From Owenia fusiformis (taxonomy: Eukaryota; Annelida; Polychaeta; Sabellida; Oweniidae): a stretch of 64,000 bases of DNA. The notes beneath the pieces are model-generated. The model was not told the DNA's origin, did no database searches, and was given only the letters and a program-made list of their open reading frames with translations. This document shows, in pieces, positions 3,734 through 41,800 of this stretch (positions are counted from its first letter, which is position 1; each line of letters opens with the position of its first letter). Both the position numbers and the translations under genes were made by a program. The DNA lies in contig CAIIXF020000005.1 in the NCBI GenBank assembly GCA_903813345.2, positions 21,579,375 through 21,643,374 on the forward strand. The letters are read 5' to 3'.

Positions 3734-3742
3734 ACACATTTT
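3734..3742. repeat. Left 9-bp target duplication (ACACATTTT)
   Basis: Identical to 6936-6944 at the other end of the element, directly abutting both inverted-repeat termini. A 9-bp duplication is the usual signature of Mutator-like transposition. Confidence 0.9.
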
Positions 3743-4779
3743 GGCTTTGTATAAAAAACCTCCTACCCACGTACCCTCGTACCCACGTACGTGGGTCCTG
3801 ACCCAGTCTTTAAAGAGTTAAATTTTTAAATGTTTAAAACATTATTCAATCTCAGTTTATCCTGAATTATAGATGAATTTATGCATCCATATGCCTTTAT
3901 TTATAGGTCTGACATCTCTCTAGTAAAATAAAATAAAGCCGGAATTGCATAAATGTTCATTATTTTTGAGCTATTTGATTTATGTTTTTGATATGTCGAA
4001 ATGTTTTTTGTTGATCGGGCAGTCTTACCTGTTTAACACATCAGTGCTGATTAGCAATCTCCTAGCCTTCGTTCAGTGCAATCCGTGCCTCCTGTTACCT
4101 CATGCAGATTGTAAATGTCCCGGGAAGTTTACCCTTGTCCAAAAGTTGACATCTTTTTAAAAATATATTTCTTAGAGTTTCCAACCAATTAAATTCACCA
4201 CATTTTATTAGATGTTTATTTCAAATGTTATTAGAATTCATTCTTACGAATATTATACGTTATTAACGTATGTTAGTCAAAGATTTGGTGTCGTTGTTGT
4301 CCATTGTATTCACGTTTTACGCGCAAAAAGCTAGAAACTACAAAGCTGAACTTTTATCATTCAAACCAGTTTTACATCAAATCATTGTCAAAATAAAACT
4401 CTACACTTCATATTACCTAATTATGGATCAAACGGCCATGAATAATGTCGAAGTTTACAAAACCAAACTTACACTCCCCTGCATAAGTTTGGCAACTCTA
4501 ACTTTTAATTCCATCTAAATGATTCACTGAACTAGTGCCAAAAAGCGATAAAAAACTAATATAGCGAATCCTTTTACTTTTCAAATATTTCGTTATTTAA
4601 TTGCGCCACGGTTAAACAGAAATGCAGCCTTTATTATTCCTTGAGATCGTGTGAATTGATCACTCTATCACTTTGTATCTCCAATTCTGATGTTAAATTA
4701 AATAAAAGACATAAGACAAATTACACGTATAGTTCAAATCCAGTACTGTCAACCCCTAAAGATTTTCTCTCGGGACAGA

Positions 4780-6380: not shown

Positions 6381-8154
6381 GCTCTGCAAATCTGTCGTGC
6401 AAACAATGAATACTTGTAATATCGTTTGAAAGAATAAAAAGTATATGTGATAAAAATCGAAACTACAGGGTGTTAAAAAACAGGACCGATGAAAAGTTGA
6501 ATAACTTCGTCAATCCAGAATCATTCAGGTCATTCAATGTGAATTTTGTTGTGAAAGTTTGACCATATTCTGCTCATGGAGTCAAAAACTACAGCACTTT
6601 ACAACACATGCCCCATGTGGCCAATTTGCGCCAAGCAATAGATTGGTTGTACACTGTAAGACTGCCCGATCAACAAAAAATCGCTTCGATATATCAAAAA
6701 CAACACTCAAATAGCTCAAATGAACATTATGCAATGCCGGCTTTATTTTATGACGAGACAGATGTCCGATCTAGAAATAAAGGCATATGGGTACATAAAT
6801 TCATCCATAATTAAGCATACATTGAGATAGAATAATGTTTAAAAAATGTTAAAGATTTAACTCTTTAAAGACTGGGTCAGGACCCACGTACGTGGGTACG
6901 AGGGTACGTGGGTAGGAGGTTTTTTATACAAAGCCACACATTTTCATTCATTGGCGAAACAAATAAAAAAATTCGGAGATTTGGTTGACGTTTTTGACAT
7001 TGAATCATTACCCTTAATAGATACAGAATTTTTGAAATTGTCAAGATCTGCTAATTCAAGAAACCATGATGAAAACAGGCTATCAAATAATATAAAAGCC
7101 TTTGGGTTTGAACGTATACGTGTTCAGGGAGATGGAAATTGTTTTCATCATGCGATCGCAAATATTATTAAATTGTTACTTGAGCAGGGTGAATCACATG
7201 TTCAAGATCATCTAAATTCTTTGGGATTCACAAGTGCAATTGAAATGAAAGAAATGTCAACTTTGATCCGCCATAGTGGATGATGCATCCGGAGACGTAC
7301 CAAATATTCTTAAACGCGGACAATGAAAATAGTGTAATAACTGAGGCCACTGCTTTTTTTTACAAAATTCATTTTATGATTCTAATTTGGGGAACAGTTT
7401 GCCCTTTGCTGCAGCAAATGTTTTTAGTATGCCGATAGTGGTAATTACAGACAATGAAAACGCAATCGAAATAATAACCCCGACGCTTTCTTCACCGGTT
7501 GATAATGAAACTATTATCAGCGTTTCCTTAAGTAATGCGGGCTCAGCAGGTCATTATGACAGTTTGATTCAAAGAAACGCAAATTCTTTGGCACGCTCTG
7601 TAACTAAGAAAGATCGAGGTAGTAAAAAAGGTTGTAGGTGTGGTGTCAACCGAATAAGAAGTGGAAAAGAAATCTTATGCTGTGTAGGTAGAAGATGCCC
7701 ATGTTCTTCAAAAAATGCTAAATGTCAACAATCGTGTGCTTGCCCTTCAAAAAATTGTAACAATGGTAAACCAAAAAAGGAATTAAATGTGAAAAAAACT
7801 AGAAGGAGACTAACAAAAGCCAGCAAGAAACATGTAACATCTTTCGAATATTTGTCGAACAATTTGCAAGAAATTAATACCAGTAATACTGGGCCGACGG
7901 ATAAATTCCAATTTTATCTTATTGCCGTGATATACAGATTGCTAATAAAGAGAAATAACACGAAGGGTAAAGAAAAGGTAGACGTGAATAGGGTTTATGA
8001 TATATACTGTAAGTGCATCGACGCAATTAATAAAAGAAGAATGGCAAATGATTCGATTACGAAAATGAACATAAAACAAGTAAAACGTGTTGTAACAAAT
8101 ATAGACAAAAATGAATTTATACTATATTCCAAAGTGTGTAAACGAAATTCTTAA

Positions 8155-15077: not shown

Positions 15078-17114
15078 ATTTCAGGTAGATTGCCAATCAA
15101 TTCAATATTGTCTCTTGATTTTGAATCTTGGATAGATACCCAGCATAGTGAAGAAACAGGGTTGCATATATTCAAATTCTGGTACATGGTACTCCAATTA
15201 CAAGTTCTGTGTCTAACAAATGTTAGAGCTGTGAGACTTGGGGACATCAAGCTCTACAAAGAAACTATCATTAAAATCATGCCATGGTTTTTCTCCCTGA
15301 ATCATACCAATTAAGCCCGCTGGGTACCTGTCCATGTAAGTGATATGGTTCAGCTCAAAGAATCCCACCCTGAAGTTCACAATGCTTTCATGAAGGGGCA
15401 TTTCACTGTCAGCAGTCAAGAAGAAGCTTCTCCCCCATGTCAATAGACCAAGCCCATGAGCAAAATAATAGTGTGATCAAAAGTGAAGGTGGAGCTGTGG
15501 GGTTGTTCAACAATCCAACCGCATTACAGAAGTGGATGGTTGGTGGTCCAGAGATGGCAAGAATGTTAACAGAGTTTGAGGATGAGATGAAGGATAATGA
15601 TGATGATGAAATCCTTGCAAACCATGAGCACAGTGTTAGTTATCAAACCAGTTTCAAGAAAGATGTCCATTCCCTTACTGAGGTTATCAATGATTTAGGA
15701 AACCCCTTTATTGCAACATCAAAGGAACTTTGGACACTTGATACTAAAGATGTAATGTCAAGCAGTGCAGTTGACACATTAAACACAATTGAGGAAAAGG
15801 GGAATATTCAATGTGAAGTATATATAAAGGAAAGAATTATTGAAAGGTCACAAGCCATCACAGACCCCATCAAGAGAAACAATTTTAAGATCTTCAAACA
15901 ACAAAAGAAGAAATCTAACTCAAGTTCAAAACTAGCAAGCTTGAAAAAAGACACTGCCCTATTTTCACAACAATACATAGCGTGCCAGAATAAAGATGAC
16001 AACTTAGATGAATTTTCCCAACATGAGAACCAGGCATATCCTCTATCCCTTTCACAAGATAGCGCAATCAAGACTGGACTCAGAGCAGATGTCTTAAAAC
16101 CAGTTGAAGACCTTGTTCCAAATAGAGAGATCAATACACAAGATGTTGAAGCCCTGTTTCTTGATGGTGCCATAATAGTCCACCTGCTGAAAGAAGAAGC
16201 AAGAACCTTCCTACAATACTCAAATGACATATTTAATAAGTATGTTGCAGATCAACTAAATAGAGTACAAAGACTTGATATTGTAGGGGATCAATATATA
16301 CCAAATAGTCTCAAATCTTCAACAAGAAAAAAGCATGGATCTGGAAAGCATCAAATAGTTTATCCAGAAAACAAATTGCCAGGGAATTGGCCAGAATTTC
16401 TACGCTCGGATGACAACAAAAGTGATCTCTTTACCTTCCTTGCATCAAATGTCTCAACCATTCCAGTACCAGAGAATAAAATGCTGATTACAACAATTGG
16501 GAATACTGCAGAGGCATATCCTAAGCAGCATTTTTCTGAGATTTCACATCATCCCATGAAGAGGCAGATTCCCGAATCTTTCAGCACATATATGATGCAA
16601 TGATAAAAGGCTTCACAAAAATGATGATTAGAACAGTTTATTCAGACATTGTTGTTCTGGCAGTTAGTATAGCTGCACAATACCCTGCTTGATGCCATGC
16701 CTATTTTAGAGCGGTTCATTATTCTGGTCTACAACAAAACAAGCAATGAAACATCAATCAACGCTGCGAGGAAGGAGATGTTCACAAAGAGGACTTCAAT
16801 AATATCTCACATTCCTCCAACATCAGATGCCCTTTTACAGCATATGAAGAGAGCCATATACCAAGCTGTATTTATTTGGGGGCAATCACTTACAGCGAAT
16901 CCTCAAGTTCCTTCCCCAGCTGAGTGGGAAGGGATATTGGAAGACACCAAATTGATACCAGGGTGGACAACTTTACCCCAAGCATCAGAAGCTTGCCAGG
17001 CTCTCATAAAGTGTAGCTGCAAAAAACCAACGCATATCAACACGATGCAAGTGCCTGAAAGGAAATCTTGTTTGTACAGCATTATCTGTGTGTGATGGCA
17101 ATTGCTCTTCATAA
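15078..17114 (+). pseudogene. Decayed member of the multi-copy HEEADSR (THEEADTR/GCDTTS) family
   Basis: Conserved landmarks appear in the expected order but in three registers: MPWFFSLNHTN (15279-15311), SIDQAHEQNN and GGAVGLFNNP (15440-15525), HEEADSRIFQHIYDAMIKGF (16555-16614), ALLQHMKRAIYQAVFIWGQS, then a cysteine-rich tail (KCSCKK ... RCKCLKGN ... CDGNCSS) ending at TAA 17112-17114. Lesions: a TAA at 15312-15314 where the family has a codon before ARW, a frameshift near 15425-15437, a frameshift just before 16555, TGA at 16690-16692 with loss of the segment that normally carries GCDTTS, and a frameshift near 17025. The largest intact frame is 15437-16603 (388 codons). From memory, such proteins are abundant and unnamed in cnidarians, molluscs and other invertebrates and may hold a PIN/FEN-like nuclease fold; function is not established. 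Confidence 0.8.
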
Positions 17115-18294: not shown

Positions 18295-18362
18295 GTGCTC
18301 CATAGTGGAATCGAAACCATGCCGCAGAAGTGCAAGGCAAGGTCCCTAACCACTACACCAGA
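18295..18362 (-). repeat. tRNA-like segment (SINE head candidate)
   Basis: On the minus strand an A-box-like TGGTGTAGTGG is followed about 40 bases later by a B-box-like GGTTTCGATTCC. That spacing fits a tRNA promoter, but I cannot draw a clean acceptor stem, so this reads as tRNA-derived repeat DNA rather than a tRNA gene. Confidence 0.5.
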
Positions 18363-18439
18363 GTGGTGTTTCATGGCTGGCCTTGATTTTTCGAAACTTT
18401 GTAGTGATATACATGTGTGATATTTTTAAGTGGCATACT

Positions 18440-18540
18440 AGAGTTGTTTCAAACTCGCCGACTTCGACAACAGAGTCCCGACACCGACTTGGTTACTGTA
18501 AATCGATACTGTAATTATGTATTTTCAAAGTTTATTTTTG
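18440..18540 (+). repeat. Left 101-bp inverted repeat
   Basis: Perfect reverse complement of 20345-20445 over all 101 positions, implying recent origin or active conversion. A 72-codon frame overlapping it is mirrored at the other end because of the duplication. Confidence 0.92.
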
Positions 18541-18706
18541 AGGTTAATATCTACCTAATTCAAATGGATTGTTTCAAGCTTCCGACTATGGAACACGAAA
18601 TGATATTTGTTGATTATATAATCAGAGGGACATAATATTCTGTTATGTATTCACTGGGTTTTTATTATTAATATATAATAATAATGATCATACAAGTGTG
18701 GTAAAG

Positions 18707-19845
18707 CTAATCTGACGATTCTGAGGAGGAAATACTAATGCCAAGTCCTGTAATAATTTTGGGCATTTTTTTCAATAGAAATCTTTCTTGGGATTTTAAA
18801 ACTCTTCTGTGGAGTTCAGTTAGTGTCTCTGTTTTCTTCTTCTTTTTCTTCTTTGTTGGAACTGCGAGTTCCTCATCATGACCACTCGACATATTATGTG
18901 CGATATTATCCCGGAAATCGTCCATCTGCTGATCGTCATCCTCATTAAAAATGGTGACGTTTTTGTCTTGAGTTGACGTACTTGCAGTTGCAGCTTGGGT
19001 CTGGGCTTTTGTAGACTTTGGGGTCGGGTTTTTTACAGGCTTTGGGGATTCCACAGGATTGGGAGTCTTCGCTTTGGTAGGCTGGGGGCAGGGTTTTTCC
19101 GCAAACCTCATTTCCATTTTCTTAACATCATCAATAGCCAATCTGAAACACAAGTCGGATAAAAATTTTATAAATAAGCAAAATCAAACTGAAATTTGAA
19201 AGTCTAGTAAATAATAGTACTAAAAAGAATGAAAAAACCCTGAAATCTCTTACTGAATTTCTGTATCTTTGACAACCTCCTTTCCTGTAACCAACTTCCC
19301 AAGCTTTGTAGAAAGATGGGTCTGTAGCTGATCATAGCTTGTTTGTTTGTAGTAACTCGACGTGTCTTCTGTTAGAAGATGGAGATTGTCTTTGATGGTA
19401 TCGACAATTTCTGTCCAACAACATGGATGCACCAAGTAGCTTCTTAGTAAAAGTAAAACTTCTGGTTTCGAAAAGAAAACCTTTCGTTTTCTTTTTGTCA
19501 AGAGCGTAGGTTCTGAAACAGATATAAATTCAGTAATAAGGCTGCTGCAAGGCGAACGCGTGCTTTGATTTGCACAGTGTCATGTTTATTCTTCACAGCT
19601 AACGTGCCATTCAAACCCTGTAAAATGTTAAGCCCCACAGAGTACGTAGTTTTTATAATATTGTGGGATATACATGTAGTTTCTGATTTCATTGAATAAA
19701 TAAACGAAACAGTAAACACGTACTGTTTTGAAATATCGAATGCATATTTAGAACAAGCTGTACGATGCCTGTAAGTATTTGAACGTACATATTTGTTAGC
19801 TAATTAGTCAAGTAACTTACCTTTGCTTACAGTTTTCGAAGCCAT
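18707..19845 (-). CDS. Three-exon gene for a 239-residue basic protein, family unknown
   Basis: Exons (minus strand): 19845-19821, 19512-19254 and 19142-18707. Donors are GTAAGT and GTAAGA, acceptors ctgtttcag and ttgtgtttcag, and the 720 joined bases form one frame from ATG (ATGGCTTCGAAA) to a stop. The protein starts MASKTVSKEPTLLTKRKRK, a basic stretch like a nuclear signal. Residues ~20-90 look like a compact helical domain with one tryptophan in CCWTEIV, possibly a divergent Myb/SANT or trihelix fold. A Pro/Thr/Lys-rich linker (~110-145), an acidic patch (EDDDQQMDD), a run of seven lysines (~192-198) and a SSSESSD end follow. It may be the DNA-binding partner gene of the element whose inverted ends enclose it, as Harbinger elements carry a Myb-like gene; this is inference. 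I do not recognise the family. Confidence 0.65.
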
Positions 19846-19973
19846 GTTACTCGTGTACTATCGTAAGAAGGTTGTGACACACCAGTGCACAAGTCAAGTA
19901 AATATATGAACGCATACGCATAGACACGTGTCACTGCCAAATACTCAGCGATGCACAAACTTGTCTCATGTTA

Positions 19974-20113
19974 TGCCTGGGTCACATAGGCTCCGATCCA
20001 TCGGCCGGCGCCCGGCCGATTGAGTGTTTTGTTCAATATTGTATTCAATTTTGAACAAAATACTCAATCGGCCGGGCGCCGTCGTGAAAATCAGAGCAAA
20101 TGTGACCAAGGCA
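19974..20113. mobile_element. MITE, 140 bp, TTA target duplication
   Basis: TTA flanks both ends (19971-19973 and 20114-20116). Ends read TGCCTGGGTCACATAGGCTC and TGCCTTGGTCACATTTGCTC inward. The inner 30-bp arms (20007-20036 and 20051-20080) match with one mismatch around a 14-base loop. A 3-bp TTA duplication fits Harbinger-type miniature elements. Confidence 0.8.
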
Positions 20114-20344
20114 TTACTTGAAAAAATCGTAGTTTTAGGACCGAATGAAGCGTATGGGCTCTGGGCTTAAACAATGCCGTTACTGTAAATCAATTGCAAA
20201 TTAAATTAGACCTTATGTAAAACGTGTAGTCTATCGTCTAATGATAAATGAAATAAACCTGAAAACCATTAAATGATGAATATTTGTCGAATATGCATTG
20301 GAATTTATCTAGAAATATTGCATGGTAAGTAATTAGTTTATCCG

Positions 20345-20445
20345 CAAAAATAAACTTTGAAAATACATAATTACAGTATCGATTTACAGTAACCAAGTCG
20401 GTGTCGGGACTCTGTTGTCGAAGTCGGCGAGTTTGAAACAACTCT
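20345..20445 (-). repeat. Right 101-bp inverted repeat
   Basis: Partner of 18440-18540, identical. Homology stops abruptly on both sides. Confidence 0.92.
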
Positions 20446-21042: not shown

Positions 21043-24000
21043 TTTTTTTTTTTTTTTTTTTTTTAAATATTTATTCAAGTTTTAGATTTACATTATAATA
21101 TAAGGTTACATGATAAAACATATTATAAGAAAGTATATAAGGGGGTTTACAGGGGAGGGGAGAGACTATAATTACTTGATCTAAGTATAGTGGGTCAAAT
21201 GTGAGAGTTTGGTTTTTCTATTTAGGTCTTCTTTTTACCCCCTTTCTGACTCTGTATGTATGTTTTGTAGTATTTGGTTTCCAGCTCAGAAAGGGGGGTT
21301 ATACATAATTTTCTATCATTGAATTTATAAGATTCCATTTTCTGTCATGCAATTCTTCTTGTCCATGTGTTTTTGCAATATATTTGTCAACCTTCTTTAA
21401 CTAAATTTTCTCTTATTAAGTATCTTTGAAAAGCATTTATGGTAGGTGTTTTTTCTTCCAATTTATTAATATACATGAATCTCTTTATGAGTAAGGTTGC
21501 TAGGTTTTGGCTGAGAGACAATCTTGGAGATCCTAACATAAAAGCTTGGTCATCAGGTATCTCTTCATTCAGGATTCTGTAGCATTGTTGTTTGAAATCT
21601 TCCATCACTTGGCATTTCAGGAAACCATGTTCTATATCGTCTATTTGGTTGCTATTGCACAGTACGCATGTTTGGGTTTTTACTTTTTTTCATTTTGAAA
21701 AGTATTTTTCTGAAGTATATTGCCCTATTTAGTATCCTATATTGAAAATATTTCATTTTCGTATCTTTTGTCAGTTTGTTTATTAGATTATATATTTTTT
21801 TCCATTCTATGTCTTTTTGAAAGTAGTCTCTCCATTTGGTTTGACCTGTAGGGGTCTTTTGCTTGAACTTTTTGCTGAGCTTTTGGTACGTTTTTTTATT
21901 GTCCCATGCTTTTAATCTCTCAATATTATCTTCGTCATCTTGTAAGTTGGTGTTTGCCATTAGGGTTTTCCACCTTGGTGGTATGCATCTTATAACAGTG
22001 TGGTAGTTGAGAAAGGTCTGGTTTTGTAAATTATATTGATTTCTTAGTTGATCATAACTTTTTAAGTGACCATTTTGGTATAAGTGTTTAATTCTTGTTA
22101 TACCTTTCCTTTCCCATTCTTTATTTTGAAGCGGGTTTTTGTTTTGCTTTATACATTCATTGTTCCATATGATTTCATTGGAGGGGTTGTCAATATCCTG
22201 TTCTTTTATATATTTTACCTCATGCCATATTTTAAGAACTTCATCCAAGCTTTTCAAATTAGTTGTAATTACATCAGACTTGTAAGGGTTTTCAATGTTA
22301 TACTCTAAAATGTTATTGTCTCTGTTTTTGTCTAGTTTGCTCATCCAGATTCTCTTCCACTTACTGTTGCAATCTTCATCTTTTAGTTTACGCAGCCATT
22401 TTAGCTTTAGGTTTTTTGCATACGATTCAAGGTGTGTCATATCTAGTCCTCCTTCTTCTGTTGTTCTCCTAAGCGTTGCTCTTGCAATTTTGTCATTTTT
22501 ATTTGACCATATAAAGTTGTAGAGGAGATCTTCTAGGTCTTTTAATGTGTTGTCTTGTGGTATTGGAACTGTTGTCAAAACGTATGAAAGTTGGGACTGA
22601 ATTAAGGACTTTATTACACATATTTTACCAACTGGCGATAGAGATCTTTCTTTCCATGTTTTAATTAAATTCTTAATCTTCTGTATAGGTTTTTCTAAGT
22701 TGGCTTTCCCGATAGGTCTCCCATCCAATGGAATTGTAATTCCCAGGACCTTGATTTCAGTTTTTTCTAGTTTTGTGCCTACCTCATTGCATATGTTTTC
22801 TGCCTCTGCTGTTATAGCTCTGGTACTTTCTCCTAGTATACCTATCTTTGTTTTTTCTTTATTTATCTTTAGTCCTGAAACTTTACCAAATTTTTCAAGC
22901 ATGTCTACGGAGGGTTTAATTGATGCTTTGTCATTTAGGTACAACACTGTGTCATCGGCATACTGTGACACCTTACAGTTCACATTGTCTATATCAATGC
23001 CTTTTATGTCTTTTGTTGCTCTAAGTGCAGTACTTAGTATTTCGGCACACATAATAAAAAGATAGGGGCTTAATGGGCAGCCTTGACGTACTCCTCGTTC
23101 AATGTTTATGTAATTTGATGTATATCCGTTGTTGATGATAGTGCTTGTGTTGTCTTTATATATTGTTCTTATCCAGTTTGTTATTCGTTCTCCAAAGTTA
23201 AAGTATTTCATAGTTTTATAGATAAAGTTATGTTCTAGTGTGTCAAAGGCTTTTTGAAAATCTATCATCATTACTATACCATTCCTACCTTCTTGTTGAA
23301 GTCTTTCATTTGTATCTATGAGAAGCCTTATGTTTTCCCCTATGTATCTGCCTTTAAGAAAACCAGTCTGGTCTGTGTTTATGACTTTTTCTAGGTTGCT
23401 TTTAATTCGGTTAGCAATTGTTTTAGTAAGAATCTTGTAATCTGTGTTTAAAAGTGTAATTGGTCTCCAGTTTTTCAGTTTTGTGGCATCTTGGCCCTTT
23501 TTTGGTATGATTGTAATTATTCCGCGTCTTTGTTCTGTAGTTAATAGACCGTTTTCAAGAGAGAAGTTATAGCTTAGTATTAGTGTGTCTTTGATCTCTT
23601 TCCAGAAGTGTTTATAGAACTCTACTGGAATACCATCTGTTCCAGGTGACTTTTTATTCTTCATATCTCTAAGCGCTAGTACTAACTCTTCCTCTGTTAG
23701 ATCTTGGTCACATTTTTCCTTGTCATATTCATTAATTGTTGTAATATTTCTTACTTGTGGAAAAAAAATGTCGTCATACTCATTTAGATTGTTTTTGGTT
23801 GCTTCGTAGAGCTTGCTGTAGAAAGCTGCTTGTTCCTTTGCTATTTCAGCTTGTGTTTCCACGCTTTCACCATTGTCTTTAATAACCTTTGACATTGTTC
23901 TGTTGTTGAAGTTTCGCTTTTCAAGTTTCAGAAAATAAGATGTTGGTTTTTCTCCTTCTGCTATCCATTTTGTTCTGCTTCTGAAAATTGTTGCTTCTGC
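21043..24000 (-). mobile_element. L1-like non-LTR retrotransposon, 3' part, running into the gap
   Basis: Read on the minus strand it has reverse-transcriptase coding sequence, a ~320-base 3' untranslated region and a terminal poly(A) (22 T residues on the plus strand, 21043-21064). A poly(A) end and this RT type fit the L1/Tx1 branch. The 5' half, where an endonuclease would be, is hidden by the N gap at 24001-24500. A target duplication cannot be tested because the 5' end is not seen. Confidence 0.9.
21387..24000 (-). pseudogene. LINE ORF2: reverse transcriptase and C-terminal zinc knuckle, one frameshift
   Basis: The frame is open from the gap edge (KWIAEGEKPTSYFLKLEKRN just before 23895) to a stop at 21652. 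Counting from the methionine at 23895, RT motifs are KSPGTDGIPVEFYKHFW (~82-98), NWRPITLLNTDYKILTKTIA (~143-162), DFQKAFD (~212-218), GVRQGCPLSPYLF (~268-280) and the catalytic YADD (~312-315). Near 21680-21690 a short indel in an A-rich run shifts the frame. In the other register a CVLCNSNQIDDIEHGFLKC zinc motif (CCHC) and a tail ending at 21387 complete the protein. The RT copies element RNA at the target site. Except for this frameshift and the missing 5' end the copy looks young. Confidence 0.9.
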
Positions 24001-24500
24001 NNNNNNNNNNNNNNNNNNNNNNNNNNNNNNNNNNNNNNNNNNNNNNNNNNNNNNNNNNNNNNNNNNNNNNNNNNNNNNNNNNNNNNNNNNNNNNNNNNNN
24101 NNNNNNNNNNNNNNNNNNNNNNNNNNNNNNNNNNNNNNNNNNNNNNNNNNNNNNNNNNNNNNNNNNNNNNNNNNNNNNNNNNNNNNNNNNNNNNNNNNNN
24201 NNNNNNNNNNNNNNNNNNNNNNNNNNNNNNNNNNNNNNNNNNNNNNNNNNNNNNNNNNNNNNNNNNNNNNNNNNNNNNNNNNNNNNNNNNNNNNNNNNNN
24301 NNNNNNNNNNNNNNNNNNNNNNNNNNNNNNNNNNNNNNNNNNNNNNNNNNNNNNNNNNNNNNNNNNNNNNNNNNNNNNNNNNNNNNNNNNNNNNNNNNNN
24401 NNNNNNNNNNNNNNNNNNNNNNNNNNNNNNNNNNNNNNNNNNNNNNNNNNNNNNNNNNNNNNNNNNNNNNNNNNNNNNNNNNNNNNNNNNNNNNNNNNNN
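24001..24500. other. Assembly gap (500 N)
   Basis: Round-number run of N. It hides the 5' part of the LINE and its upstream flank. Frames reported across it on either strand are artefacts. Confidence 0.99.
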
Positions 24501-24769
24501 TTCAGACACCATCATCGTTGCGAAGGTCACGTGATGACTATCCCTACTGTGTTCAGGCCCGTAAGACACTTTTCTCGAAGGGGGGGGGGCGGTTTTTACT
24601 AAAGAGAATATGAAATTGTCAATTTTTGCCGCGTAAATCAAATCGCGTAAGTCAGAGGGGGGGGGGGTCGGTTACTCCCTATATTGGGGCCATTCAGCCT
24701 ATTTTGTTGTTTTATTGTTTTTAGATTAAATATTGAATGAGCAATTTGGAGAAACGCTGGAATAGGGGG
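24501..24769. other. Sequence after the gap, no feature recognised
   Basis: Contains runs of nine or more G (near 24582 and 24658) but no domain or repeat I can match. It could be LINE 5' flank. Confidence 0.4.
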
Positions 24770-34389: not shown

Positions 34390-35424
34390 TTGATACATTT
34401 AGAGATCAATTCTTTTCGCTGGATTTTAGATTCTGGTAGATCTTCTCAAAAGCACAGGTTCTTTACAGAGAGTTTTACTAGGAGTACAATTACTGGTTGT
34501 TTCAGATGATTTAGGAGGTTCAATAGCAACATGAGGTTGAGATTTGATTGGTTTAGGGATACAAAATGGTTTGACAGGACTGGGGCTTGGTGCTTTAACT
34601 GGTTGTGTTTCAGTGACAGGGTCGGGAATGTGCAAGAGGTCTTGACGGTCCCTTCTGTATACACCACCATTTTCTGCTTGTATTTTGTAAGATCTCTGTG
34701 AAATCTTCTTAAGCACTTTGGCTCTGACATCCCATGTGGCTTTCTCATCATGCTTTGATTTCATTCTTTCAGTATCATCTGGGGTTAAATTTGATAGATT
34801 CCTTGATCCTAGGGATCGTCTGAGTCTGTTAAGTATAGATCCTTTCTTTGGTTTCATGACTTGGGGAATGTTGCTTCTTAGTTTCCGCCCCATTAGCATT
34901 TCTGCTGGAGACATACCAGTTTCAATTGGTGAGTTTCGGTATGCCAACAATGCTAAATATGGATCTTCTTTGTTGTGGGCAGCTTTTTTTCAGCATGTGT
35001 TTCACGGACCTCACTGAATTTTCAGCCTTTCCATTCCCTCTATGTCTATATGGACTAGACAGTGAGACTTGGAATTCATATTGCTCAGCAAATTTGGAAA
35101 ATTCAACTGAAGCAAATTGTGAGCCAGTGTCCACTCTGACTACAAATGGTATCCCAAGCCTGGAAAATGTGGATTTCATCTGATGGATGATGGTACTGGT
35201 TGATGTGTTTGATAATGTAGCTACCTCTGGATAAGTTGAAAAGTAATCTGTCATGATCAGATAGTCTTTGCCAAATAGGTGGAATATGTCACAGCCTATT
35301 TTCTGCTATGGTGCAGTTGTTCGGTCTCCATCAACCATAGTCTGTTTCCCCTGACCATATCTGTGGATCTGGCAGGCTTCACAAGAATTTACCATATTAC
35401 AAATATTTTTGTAAATGCCTGGCC
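34390..35424 (-). pseudogene. Ty3/gypsy retrotransposon integrase remnant
   Basis: Minus strand, order as in a gypsy integrase: a zinc-binding remnant (CEACQIHRYGQGKQT), then GCDIFHLFGKDYLIMTDYFS (first Asp of the DDE core), VRVDTGSQFA (second Asp), GNGKAENSVRSVK (Glu), then YRNSPIETGMSPAEMLMGRK and a Pro-rich tail ending RRSTRI. An in-frame TAG interrupts it before QKIGCDIFH, and a frameshift near 34930-34950 separates the core (34922-35254) from the tail (34426-34950). Protease, RT and RNase H are absent; the 5' side stops abruptly at ~35424 against the foldback family. It is a dead fragment; integrase inserts the retroelement cDNA. Confidence 0.88.
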
Positions 35425-37050: not shown

Positions 37051-38612
37051 CCTGATACTAATACATTACTATATGGATTTGCAATGTCTAGGTTTTATTC
37101 AAGTAACTGACTCCACTGAGTGTGTATTCAAATGTTGTGCTTATAGAATGTATCGACTCCTATACTATCTTTTGAATGAAAATAAACTCTTCCAAAAGTG
37201 ATAGGACCTTAGTGCACCCATGCCATGGTAAGGACCTTAGGTTGGCATGCCAAAATGTAAAATCTCTATTTGCAGGGAGGATTAAATATGGAGTGTATAG
37301 CAATGGTCAATACGATATTTTCAGAGGGAATATCTTTTTTCTCTAGAAGTGGAACCCAAACTCAGTCATGACATGGAAGCTAACTTTTGCAATTAATAGA
37401 AACTTGTTTATTATTACATTTTTGTGTTCTATATTTGAGATGAAATAAAATGAGATTCATTTCTACAAGAGGATGGAATGAATGTCAACTTGTATATTGA
37501 ACTATACTCCATTTGTGAATAAATAGAACAACATTTTCTCCAAGCCATTTAAGAAAACCAAGGCCAATGAGTGTAATTTATGCCCAGTTAAACTAACACA
37601 ATAACAACTTTTTGTCTGGACTCACTTATTATGCAAGAATGAATTGTATTACTGTTTACTGCATTAAATGTCAAGTATACTATCTGTATTTAATTTCAAA
37701 TGCCTATCTCACTTATCGAAGGTATACAAGAAATGTTATTTTGAAACAAATTCAGCACAACCAAAACCATGTCCATATATAAGACAAATCCAAGACGGCT
37801 GCCACAATTTTAGATCCATGCACATGTGAAGAAGTTAGAAATACACATGAATCACAAGTCCTATCCCCAATAAAATGGGAAGTTTAAGGTTCTCACACAT
37901 ATCAACTCTATTCCAATATACTTTATATTTGTGGTAAGGCTTGTGATCTAGGTAAACTTAGCATGTGCATGTACCTCCTATCCTCTGAAGCAAAAAACAG
38001 AAATAGTGACTTCAATTGAGAAAAATGTATCTTATGGGCTCCATATACATTTTGAGTGGCTGTCCAGCTTAAGTTAGATACTACTGTTAATCTGAGATTG
38101 AAAATTTTGTCAAGTTTAGTCCTCTGAGCCTCTCATAACTGATAACTTCGAGGTAATTGTGGTGTTACTGCAAAAACCTCTATTTCTTCCTCACAACTCT
38201 ACCATCTTTTGCATCTGTCAAAACCCCTCATTTCATGTTAATTTTCAGAGTTTTGTTTGTGCCATCATTAAATATATATATTCAACTTGTTATTCAGAAT
38301 ATTTTAAGAACTTTTCGTTAGGTTTTTATTTTCACACTTTTGAAAAAATGACTAAGTCAGGGAATGGCCTCTTAATGGCATGTTCCCTTTCACGAATTCA
38401 TATTAAGAACCTTTGAAATGAGAGCATTATTCCGCGAACTTATTGAACCACCTGGCATATGTTAATAGACAAACAAGTTATGAAACGTAAGGTAGGTGTC
38501 ATTTTTCACACTGCATATGAAAAATGTTTTAGTATATTTTATTTCATATATCTATCCAAAACTTCTCAAAAACAGACATAAAATAAAAATTACTTTAAAC
38601 TTTGATTTTAAG
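37051..38612. other. Upstream of the DMTF1-like coding start; promoter or 5' UTR exons not identified
   Basis: No CpG-rich stretch, TATA arrangement or clear non-coding exon could be picked out. The coding start is preceded by a pyrimidine-poor acceptor-like ttgattttaag at 38602-38612, so a 5' UTR exon may lie further upstream. Confidence 0.35.
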
Positions 38613-38615
38613 GTG

Positions 38616-38888
38616 ATGGAGACTGATTCAAATACAGTCACACAAGTTGGGGAAATCGGTGAAGAAAGTACACACGAGGAACATTTGGAACAAGTTCCAT
38701 ATGAAATTGTTGAAGAAAATAATGAAGTAGAACAAGAGCTTGATCAAGAGAGTGTTGTTGTCGAAGGGGACAGTGTTGAACATGGCAATGAAGAGATGAA
38801 TAATAAAGAGATCACTGTTGCTGTTGTCAATGATAATATTCCAGAAAGTGAGGACCATAATGCACTTATCAACACAGAAACATATGAG
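38616..38888 (+). CDS. DMTF1: DMTF1-like coding exon 1
   Basis: 91 codons from ATG. Donor GAG|GTATGT at 38889, phase 0. Glu/Asp-rich (EEHLEQVPYEIVEENNEVEQ). The next upstream stop lies well 5', so the start is chosen as the first ATG after the possible acceptor at 38612. Confidence 0.75.
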
Positions 38889-41800
38889 GTATGTAAACTG
38901 AAAATGATATCCAACATTTTTGTTTATTATCACAATGCTTTATAGAGGTTTAAGTTGCTTTATGTTTCCATTGTTGTAATATATAATTGTAAAATATAAT
39001 TTTTCTTGAAAAATATTTGCACAGAAAATATTTGCACCCACCTGAGAAAAATTCCTAGTATAAGGAGATAACTGCTACATGGTTTGTCCAAATGTTTGTC
39101 TGAATTTATCTATGTGTAAAGATTGTATACTTCAGTTGCTCTTAAACAAAATATGTGGGGCAGTGTATTTATATTTTATAGGCTTATGGCCTGGGTGAAG
39201 GAACTGTGCTCAAAAAGGAATTCTCAATATGGCCGGATTCATTTCAAATTTTTTATGCTGTTGCCTTGAGACACATGACCTCTTCTCAAGAAGGGAATTT
39301 CAAGATGGCAGCTGATTTTTTTGTAAACAAAGATAAATTTTGATAACTCAAAAAACAGTTGACAGATTTGGTTCAAATTTTATATGCTGATGCCTAGAGA
39401 CAAAGGAGCTCTGATCAAAAAGACATTTTCATGATGGCCTCTGAATGTAAAATGGCCACAAATTTTTATAAAAAGGTCATCTTTGATAATTCGAATTCCA
39501 TTGGATGGATTTGGTTCATACTTTGTACTACTCCCTTGAGTTGCTGTTTTCTAGTTTACCAATATTTTATGTTATTTTCTTGCATATTCTATAATTTTAC
39601 CGGTTACCTGTATTTTGCAAGCGACCAGGCGACCCAGGCGGGCGCTTTTATTTTTTTCATAGGGGTGGTAGGATCAAAAACACATTCCAAAGTTAATTTA
39701 TGGACTATCTTTAAGATTATGTTGTCATAACAAAAAAAGCTAACATACGTATCAGGCCGGGGTATCAGGGCTAGGCAACTTTTTTCTCCAAGCAGATCTT
39801 GACAAAGAGTTTGCTGCATTATCTTGTTGGACCTATCTTGTTGTTGTCGTCTTCCGGTCAGGTCAAGGACACTGGATTTTTAACTTCCGGTCAAGATTTT
39901 AATTACACTAAATTTAGGAACTTTCCAAACAGTTTCGGCCTTTTAAATCCTGTGTAATATTTTGCAATATTGTTCAGTTTACTTATGCCATGCTCAGTTT
40001 GTCCCGATCTTCTCTAAACTTAATGTTCTCAGTGGTCAAGCAGGTGACCTCACTTGACCCTGACGTCACTGATCACTGTTGACCAATCAGCGCGCAGTAG
40101 ACCAGAGGGTTTGTAGAAAAAAAAAGGGTACCGGGTAGTAAATACTCCATGGACTTCTAGCTCAATTTTGAAGGAAGTTACATACATTTTTGTAAATTCA
40201 AAACAAATCTTACATGTTTTCTAATGATATTTATGTTATGTATTCGTATTTTTCGTGTTTTGGGTACCCGTTTTTTTCGACCGTGTACCGTGTACCAAGT
40301 TTGAACCCAGCATGGAGGATATACATGTTAGGGGTCACACGGTTAACCGTGGCTTGCGGTTACCGCGGTTCATACCTCCACGACGGTTAGCTCGGACACA
40401 ATCTTGAAAACCGCGGTTCTTGAAGAACCGTGACATTTTCAGTTTCACTTCAGAAAAATAAAAATGTAAACTCGGAATTAAACTCCATTTCAAGCTTTCG
40501 TGTAATACCAATTAACTAAACATCGTCTGGAATCGTTAATCATCATGCAATAATGCGAACCATACCTGATATTTACGACGATCTTCTGATATAGACGGCA
40601 GATAACAAAAACAAAAGGAAAATGTTGATAAATTTCACCGGCATATTGACCCGGAAGTGACCTACGCTAAACATTTCGCGCAATCCTATTGGTTGATAGA
40701 ACAGTATACTGTAAAAAGCCGAACGCCGAATGCATTGAATTTGCGAACGAGTCACGTTCTGTGTATTACGTTCGCCTTTGATCCATGTTGAGTCCTGACA
40801 AAGTGTTGAACTTAAGTTATATTTCTAAAGAAAACATTTATTCAGTTTAGTGAAGTATTGTGCTAATTTTGCCAACAGTTGACAAGTTGTCCAAATGTAT
40901 TCATCGGTTAGGTAAAGATAATTAATATGTATTACTTTCCTCAAATCACTAACCAAAATAACTTACTTTTTCGAGCTTTCGGTAGCAGCTAAGGTAGTAC
41001 AAAGGTAGTAGCTGCTACCGAAAGCTCGAAAAAGTAAGTTATTTTGGTTAGTGATTTGAGGAAAGTAATACATATTAGTTGACAAGTTATTTTATGTGTT
41101 GAAAAAACTTGAACATCAAACAAGAAGATCAACACAGTGAACACACAGATATTTTGGGAGGGAGGGAGGGAAAAAAGACTGAACAAACAAACATTGTGTG
41201 AAACTGGATACTTACAATACTGAATACAATAAAACACTGTGACACACTTAGTATGATTTCTGATTTTCAGATCAATTTCATATATTTTTGCTCATTTCAC
41301 GAGGCCCGTGAGAACCGCAATCAGAACCGAACCGAACTGTGAAATACAATCACCGAACCGAACCGTGAAATCTCAAACCGTGTGACCCCTAATACATGTA
41401 CTACCCGGTACCCGGTTTTTCCTACAAACCCTAGACCAGACCCATACATCGCTATCGCTCTCGTTTTATTTGAACAGATTCAAATTTGCTGCTACAATAT
41501 TGCGTATACCACCAAGTACCAACCACCATATATAGTTACACGACGACAGAATCTCAAAGATAATCATGCAATAAAATAATTTTGGAATGTGTTTTTGATC
41601 CTACCACCCCTATGAAAAAAATAAAAGCGCCCGCCTGGGTCGCCTGGTCGCCTGTAAAATACAGATAACCAATTTTACCTTTATATGCCATACTATACCA
41701 CAGAGTACCCTTCTTTGATGAGACACAGTGGTCACATTTCTAATAGGATTATGATTTTCTTTTCTTTTCAGGCTAGTGGATCAGAGGTTACAGGAAAAGA

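Follow-up and report, generated by a model that had tools for sequence, protein, structure and literature searches.

According to two papers, Harbinger systems use a separate protein that attaches to the terminal inverted repeats (TIRs) and delivers the transposase both to the nucleus and to the element ends (PMC2836001; PMC9179366). Pangu, one of the PIF/Harbinger-ISL2EU-Spy (PHIS) groups, is reported in another paper to have TIRs of 11–40 bp that usually start with AG or GG, together with a 3-bp ANT duplication (PMC4482050). The authors of that paper saw no known motif in the second ORF of Pangu, and elsewhere in it Pangu is listed among the groups with a Myb/SANT extra ORF. The same paper gives the first base of PIF/Harbinger TIRs as usually A or G and their length as 5–1042 bp, with ~93% under 60 bp, and has Spy inserting within AAATTT and making no duplication (PMC4482050). 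Beyond these groups, other papers give the ends of Kolobok as 5′-RR and YY-3′, with an extra protein in some lineages (PMC9587614), the termini of Ginger as TGTNR (PMC2836005), and the TIRs of Polinton as hundreds of nucleotides long, with a 6-bp duplication (PMC8969392).

The locus studied here occupies positions 18440–20445 of a 64-kb window, by which we mean the whole stretch of DNA that was analyzed, and it consists of 2,006 bp with inverted arms at both ends and a minus-strand gene between them (Table 1). We read it as probably a TIR element carrying its own gene, because the arms are identical and abruptly bounded, with an end pattern seen nowhere else in the window, and because each arm holds three classes of repeats, the CCGACNNCGAC motif is confined to the arms, and the exons and an AATAAA signal lie between them. 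Counting against this reading are the lack of an exact target-site duplication, the single copy in 64 kb, the lack of a family match above any cut-off and of a reliable fold for the protein, and the length of the arms.

The locus is closest in design to the Harbinger-like (PHIS) elements, and to Pangu above all; we claim no membership, and a Harbinger-like (PHIS) partner for the element is a tentative suggestion that we would sooner doubt than assume. Set against the published description of Pangu, the AGAGTTG end, with its start taken as 18440, agrees with an AG start, and the left flank, ACT, fits ANT, as ~10% of random sites do by themselves, whereas the right flank, TCT, does not, leaving no ANT duplication. 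The 101-bp arms exceed the 11–40 bp of Pangu, and the element has no DDE transposase among its frames of at least 75 amino acids. An accessory gene without a known motif would be a further likeness, made uncertain by the Myb/SANT count in the same paper (PMC4482050). PIF/Harbinger elements with a Myb/SANT ORF1 likewise have a small gene apart from the transposase, and the A at the start of the TIR agrees with them, but the locus lacks a 3-bp TWA duplication and a transposase, Pfam detected no Myb/SANT domain in its product, and the TIRs of most Harbinger-like families are shorter than its arms. Ginger was rejected on its termini, as the end here reads AGAGT and not TGTNR. Because PIF/Harbinger, Spy, Kolobok, Ginger, and Polinton each disagree with the locus at the flanks or the ends, and Pangu shows the mismatches given above, we have not filed the element in any named family.

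Table 1. Features of the element and other inverted structures in the window
Feature	Position	Strand	Remarks
Left TIR	18440–18540	+	101 bp, starts AGAGTTG; matches 20345–20445 in reverse complement at 101/101 bases
Two CCGACNNCGAC motifs, 20 bp apart	18458–18488 (starts 18458, 18478)	+	Left arm; mirrored in right arm at 20417 and 20397
Direct TACTGTAA pair, 13 bp apart	18494–18514	+	Left arm; mirrored in right arm
AATAAA polyadenylation-like signal	18661–18666	-	~40 nt past the stop
Exon 3	18707–19142	-	Lys/Pro-rich linker, acidic stretch, poly-Lys, C-terminal region with Ser/acidic tail, stop codon
Intron 2, 111 nt	19143–19253	-	GTAAGA...TTTCAG
Exon 2	19254–19512	-	Basic KRKRK stretch and probably helical region; low-confidence predicted helices
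Intron 1, 308 nt	19513–19820	-	GTAAGT...TTTCAG
Exon 1	19821–19845	-	Start codon of the gene model
Imperfect palindromic MITE-like insert	19974–20113		Upstream of gene; TTA flanks 19971–19973 and 20114–20116
Internal 13-mer GTTACTGTAAATC, common to arms	20179–20191	+	Upstream of gene; weak
Right TIR	20345–20445	-	101 bp, perfect partner of 18440–18540
Inverted pair	3742–3829 with 6849–6936		1/88 mismatches
Long hairpin	40920–40991 with 41009–41080 (40920–41080)		72-base arms, 1/72 mismatched, 17-base spacer

Terminal arms, flanks, and other inverted pairs

An earlier note on this DNA, made from its letters, had described 101-bp inverted repeats without a mismatch, and this description held. The similarity breaks off abruptly, with mismatches from base 102 inward and immediately at the outer side; lengthened to 108 bp, the arms have 2 mismatches. 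With up to three mismatches allowed, a 23-base end pattern occurs 2 times in the window, a number that none of 100 shuffles reached. When the element was compared with the window by blastn, the matches were the element, its own arms, the internal palindrome, and two short ones of 22 and 26 bases, and no second copy of the ends or of the element was found within the 64 kb. Three exact patterns of 21–23 bases from the end DNA gave 0 matches each in viral contigs; the collections searched for the ends and for the protein are viral or prokaryotic, and negatives there carry little weight. A 17-base end pattern led to 18 loci in GTDB contigs, all 18 matching the arm over only 17–21 bases and rejected as chance, and one of them also matches the element weakly over another 31 bases (E 0.18). 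We likewise rejected a DNA hairpin with a 5-bp stem at the arm tip, since the 101-base arm is not more stable than its shuffles (119/200 have equal or greater stability; z 0.28).

Short repeats recur inside the arms. All 4 occurrences of CCGACNNCGAC in the 64 kb lie inside the two arms, and 5 of the 13 occurrences of the TACTGTAA 8-mer in the window lie in the element. Each 101-bp arm contains three self-repeat classes, distinguished by offset, a number reached by 1/1000 shuffles; only the number of classes is unusual, since a single within-arm repeat of the observed quality (9/11) is present in 173/1000 shuffles. These repeats resemble clustered protein-binding sites and, judged from the letters, might be bound as such. 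The internal 13-mer GTTACTGTAAATC was considered as an operator and dropped, as equally long matches (at least 13) with the arm turn up in 10/1000 shuffles and in 2 of 66 other window segments.

The flanks carry no exact target-site duplication of 3–11 bp at shifts of −6 to +11. Their best near-match, TACTA/TTCTA (4/5), was equaled in ~27% of 5000 random flank pairs, a figure for which pairs with N were dropped yet counted in the denominator. For the immediate 3-bp flanks, ACT and TCT, a match of at least 2/3 is seen in 17% of random pairs, and no duplication of 8–11 bp at 75% match or more was found in the flanks. A query that joined the left and right flanks, as in an empty site, returned both flanks and one 24-base chance match, and no second locus. 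A fresh simple insertion should keep its duplication, so that its absence counts against the recent movement proposed in the earlier note. That proposal is now weak: 0/101 arm mismatches would allow a divergence of up to 2.9% (95%), other inverted pairs of the window are nearly perfect, and no intact duplication is seen. Intact arms between unmatched flanks would also be expected of a TIR element that inserts without duplicating its target site, or whose duplication disappeared through mutation or recombination between copies. DNA transposons without a duplication do exist, Spy in its AAATTT site being an example (PMC4482050), but Spy itself is excluded by flanks that are not AAA/TTT, and a single locus cannot separate loss from absence. 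We regard this explanation, which overlaps the reading of a TIR element with its own gene, as rather unlikely.

The missing duplication, and ends with no other copy in the window, would likewise suit a host gene, or a captured one, flanked by a local inverted duplication whose arms gene conversion keeps identical. The window holds 79 inverted pairs of at least 35 nt, and some of the 16 that were recounted are nearly perfect. Against such a duplication stand the abrupt inner and outer edges of each arm, the three repeat classes within an arm together with the absence of CCGACNNCGAC elsewhere in the window, and the position of the arms, which surround the coding exons without overlapping them; we consider it an unlikely origin. 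The same pairs bear on the statement that the perfect ends sit beside otherwise decayed elements, which stood in one part only. The 101 bases of the arms are indeed the longest perfect run among the 16 recounted pairs, but the next runs measure 96, 82, and 78 bases. As two other inverted structures have mismatches of 1/88 and 1/72 and one run reaches 96, the contrast is modest.

The MITE-like insert inside the element has arms (19961–20041 and 20046–20126) that are mismatched at 17/81 positions. If these arms were once identical, the insert hints at an age greater than that suggested by the outer arms, and an older insert would in turn hint at a later move of the whole unit or at homogenized outer arms. 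Many MITE-like inserts are imperfect from the start, and the age of this one is for that reason a hint only.

The enclosed gene and its product

Between the arms, the predicted minus-strand gene has three exons that join into 720 nt, encoding 239 amino acids and a stop, and the spliced 239-residue gene with two consensus introns and an unbroken frame is confirmed as a predicted coding sequence with coding-like bias. Codon-position composition of the spliced sequence departs from uniformity (chi2 32.1, p 1.6e-5), while the non-coding controls do not (introns, p 0.35; neighboring 720-nt flank, p 0.64). The score is equaled in 5 of the 172 720-nt windows of the 64 kb, and these sit at three places that hold long frames (~15.5, 22.7, and 38.2–38.5 kb). 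Within the interior, the two longest open stretches on the same strand add up to 267 codons, a sum that 1/1000 dinucleotide shuffles attained, and 6/1000 attained the 158 codons of the longest stretch by itself. Besides the signal past the stop, there are two more AATAAA, one in intron 1 and one in the left arm. Retention of intron 2 ends the frame at once and was considered as a regulatory switch; we dropped this idea, as a GTAA donor in that phase stops the frame of a retained intron as a rule.

The protein is basic over residues 1–20 (net charge +6) and mildly acidic over residues 21–100 (net −4), and after residue 100 a Lys/Pro-rich linker (+7) is followed by an acidic stretch (−9) and by poly-Lys with a basic end (+9). 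No Pfam family matched the whole protein at E ≤ 1, and the four pieces of the gene gave one weak unrelated match (PepSY_TM, E 0.3) at E ≤ 10. One weak match in PHROGs (E 0.19), three in NCBIfam (E 0.06–0.77, far below the cut-off), and two among PDB sequences (E 0.36 and 5.3) were, like the PepSY_TM match, taken as chance or low complexity. No relative was confirmed among 13 pattern stretches for the protein and 51 for exon 2 alone in viral contigs, nor among 64 for the protein in GTDB genome contigs.

Exon 2 was also searched by profile and by fold. It had no Pfam match at E up to 10, and a Myb/SANT domain was not detected. AlphaFold, given the single sequence of exon 2 and no alignment, predicted helices with a mean pLDDT of 54, and Foldseek found 72 matches to this model at E ≤ 10, with none at E ≤ 0.001 among the best 50 of the 72. 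The helices predicted in this poor model would agree with the small helical DNA-binding domain suggested in the earlier note, though they do not establish it, and with no match by either route the link to Harbinger Myb-like proteins is weak.

The alternation of basic and acidic regions along the protein, from its basic start to its poly-Lys end, is among the grounds on which we read the product as a candidate accessory protein, and the element probably functions in the manner of a two-component TIR system. The product would most likely be a nuclear DNA-binding protein that could recognize the repeated motifs of the arms, and the cutting enzyme might be supplied in trans by a longer relative, in an arrangement that would, by analogy, be that of two-protein Harbinger-like systems. 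In a bolder form, which we think improbable, the locus would represent a split two-component transposon, that is, a family with only the TIR-binding accessory gene, encoding a novel DNA-binding family, that spreads apart from the transposase and possibly without a duplication. If the accessory gene truly travels alone between its ends, nature would have supplied a test of the division of labor in two-protein transposons and of the way in which their two halves stay together. On present evidence, what lies in this repeat-rich stretch is a TIR element of a fairly ordinary kind, with a single gene and no assigned class.

Transposase search and other frames of the window

All four interior frames of at least 75 amino acids between the arm ends were scanned with Pfam and gave no match above the cut-off, in agreement with the earlier statement that the element contains no transposase; the absence of a DDE transposase is a result that a non-autonomous copy would also give. 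In the window, none of the 29 frames scanned, from a total of 99 of at least 75 amino acids and without N, matched a DNA-transposon transposase above the Pfam cut-off. One of the 29, at 34925–35305 on the minus strand, contains an integrase core (rve, E 3.6e-12) of the retrotransposon type.

A deletion derivative or other non-autonomous element from outside PHIS, such as Polinton/Maverick, a Mutator-like element, or Kolobok, that retains one minor gene would overlap the reading of a TIR element with its own gene. Arms of ~100 bp suit Mutator-like elements, which make duplications of 8–11 bp, and AG ends fit Polinton. The arms also come near the published length of Polinton TIRs (PMC8969392), and the purine and pyrimidine ends fit the RR/YY ends given for Kolobok (PMC9587614). 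However, the flanks show neither the 6-bp match of Polinton nor the 8–11 bp duplication of Mutator-like elements, nor the TTAA of Kolobok, and none of the interior frames of at least 75 amino acids matches a protein family of these classes; we consider such a derivative distinctly unlikely.

Several other features of the window were recorded. Close to the element, 18300–18368 on the minus strand has tRNA-like Pol III boxes A and B, recognized by eye, and is possibly the head of a SINE; ARAGORN reported no tRNA there. The window also holds satellites, which together with the introns of the gene and an L1-like reverse transcriptase suggest that the DNA is eukaryotic. The right arm of the inverted pair at 6849–6936 overlaps the start of a frame at 6861–7280 that weakly resembles otubain (Peptidase_C65, E 0.01, below the cut-off), and this frame is followed by a Cys-rich one at 7345–8151 that has no Pfam match. 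On the plus strand at 15374–17092, two neighboring frames of 409 and 140 codons have no Pfam match, and nowhere in the window is codon-position bias stronger than in the 409-codon frame. A reverse transcriptase (RVT_1, E 1.1e-44) lies at 21390–24501 on the minus strand and is L1-like by our own reading; the frame next to it matches zf-RVT weakly (E 0.0041, below the cut-off), and on the upstream side the reverse transcriptase region reaches a run of N at 24001–24500. Finally, an acidic frame at 38496–38942 on the plus strand, with weak Pfam matches (E 0.03 and 0.048, both below the cut-off), has a gene-like codon-position bias and is possibly a host exon.
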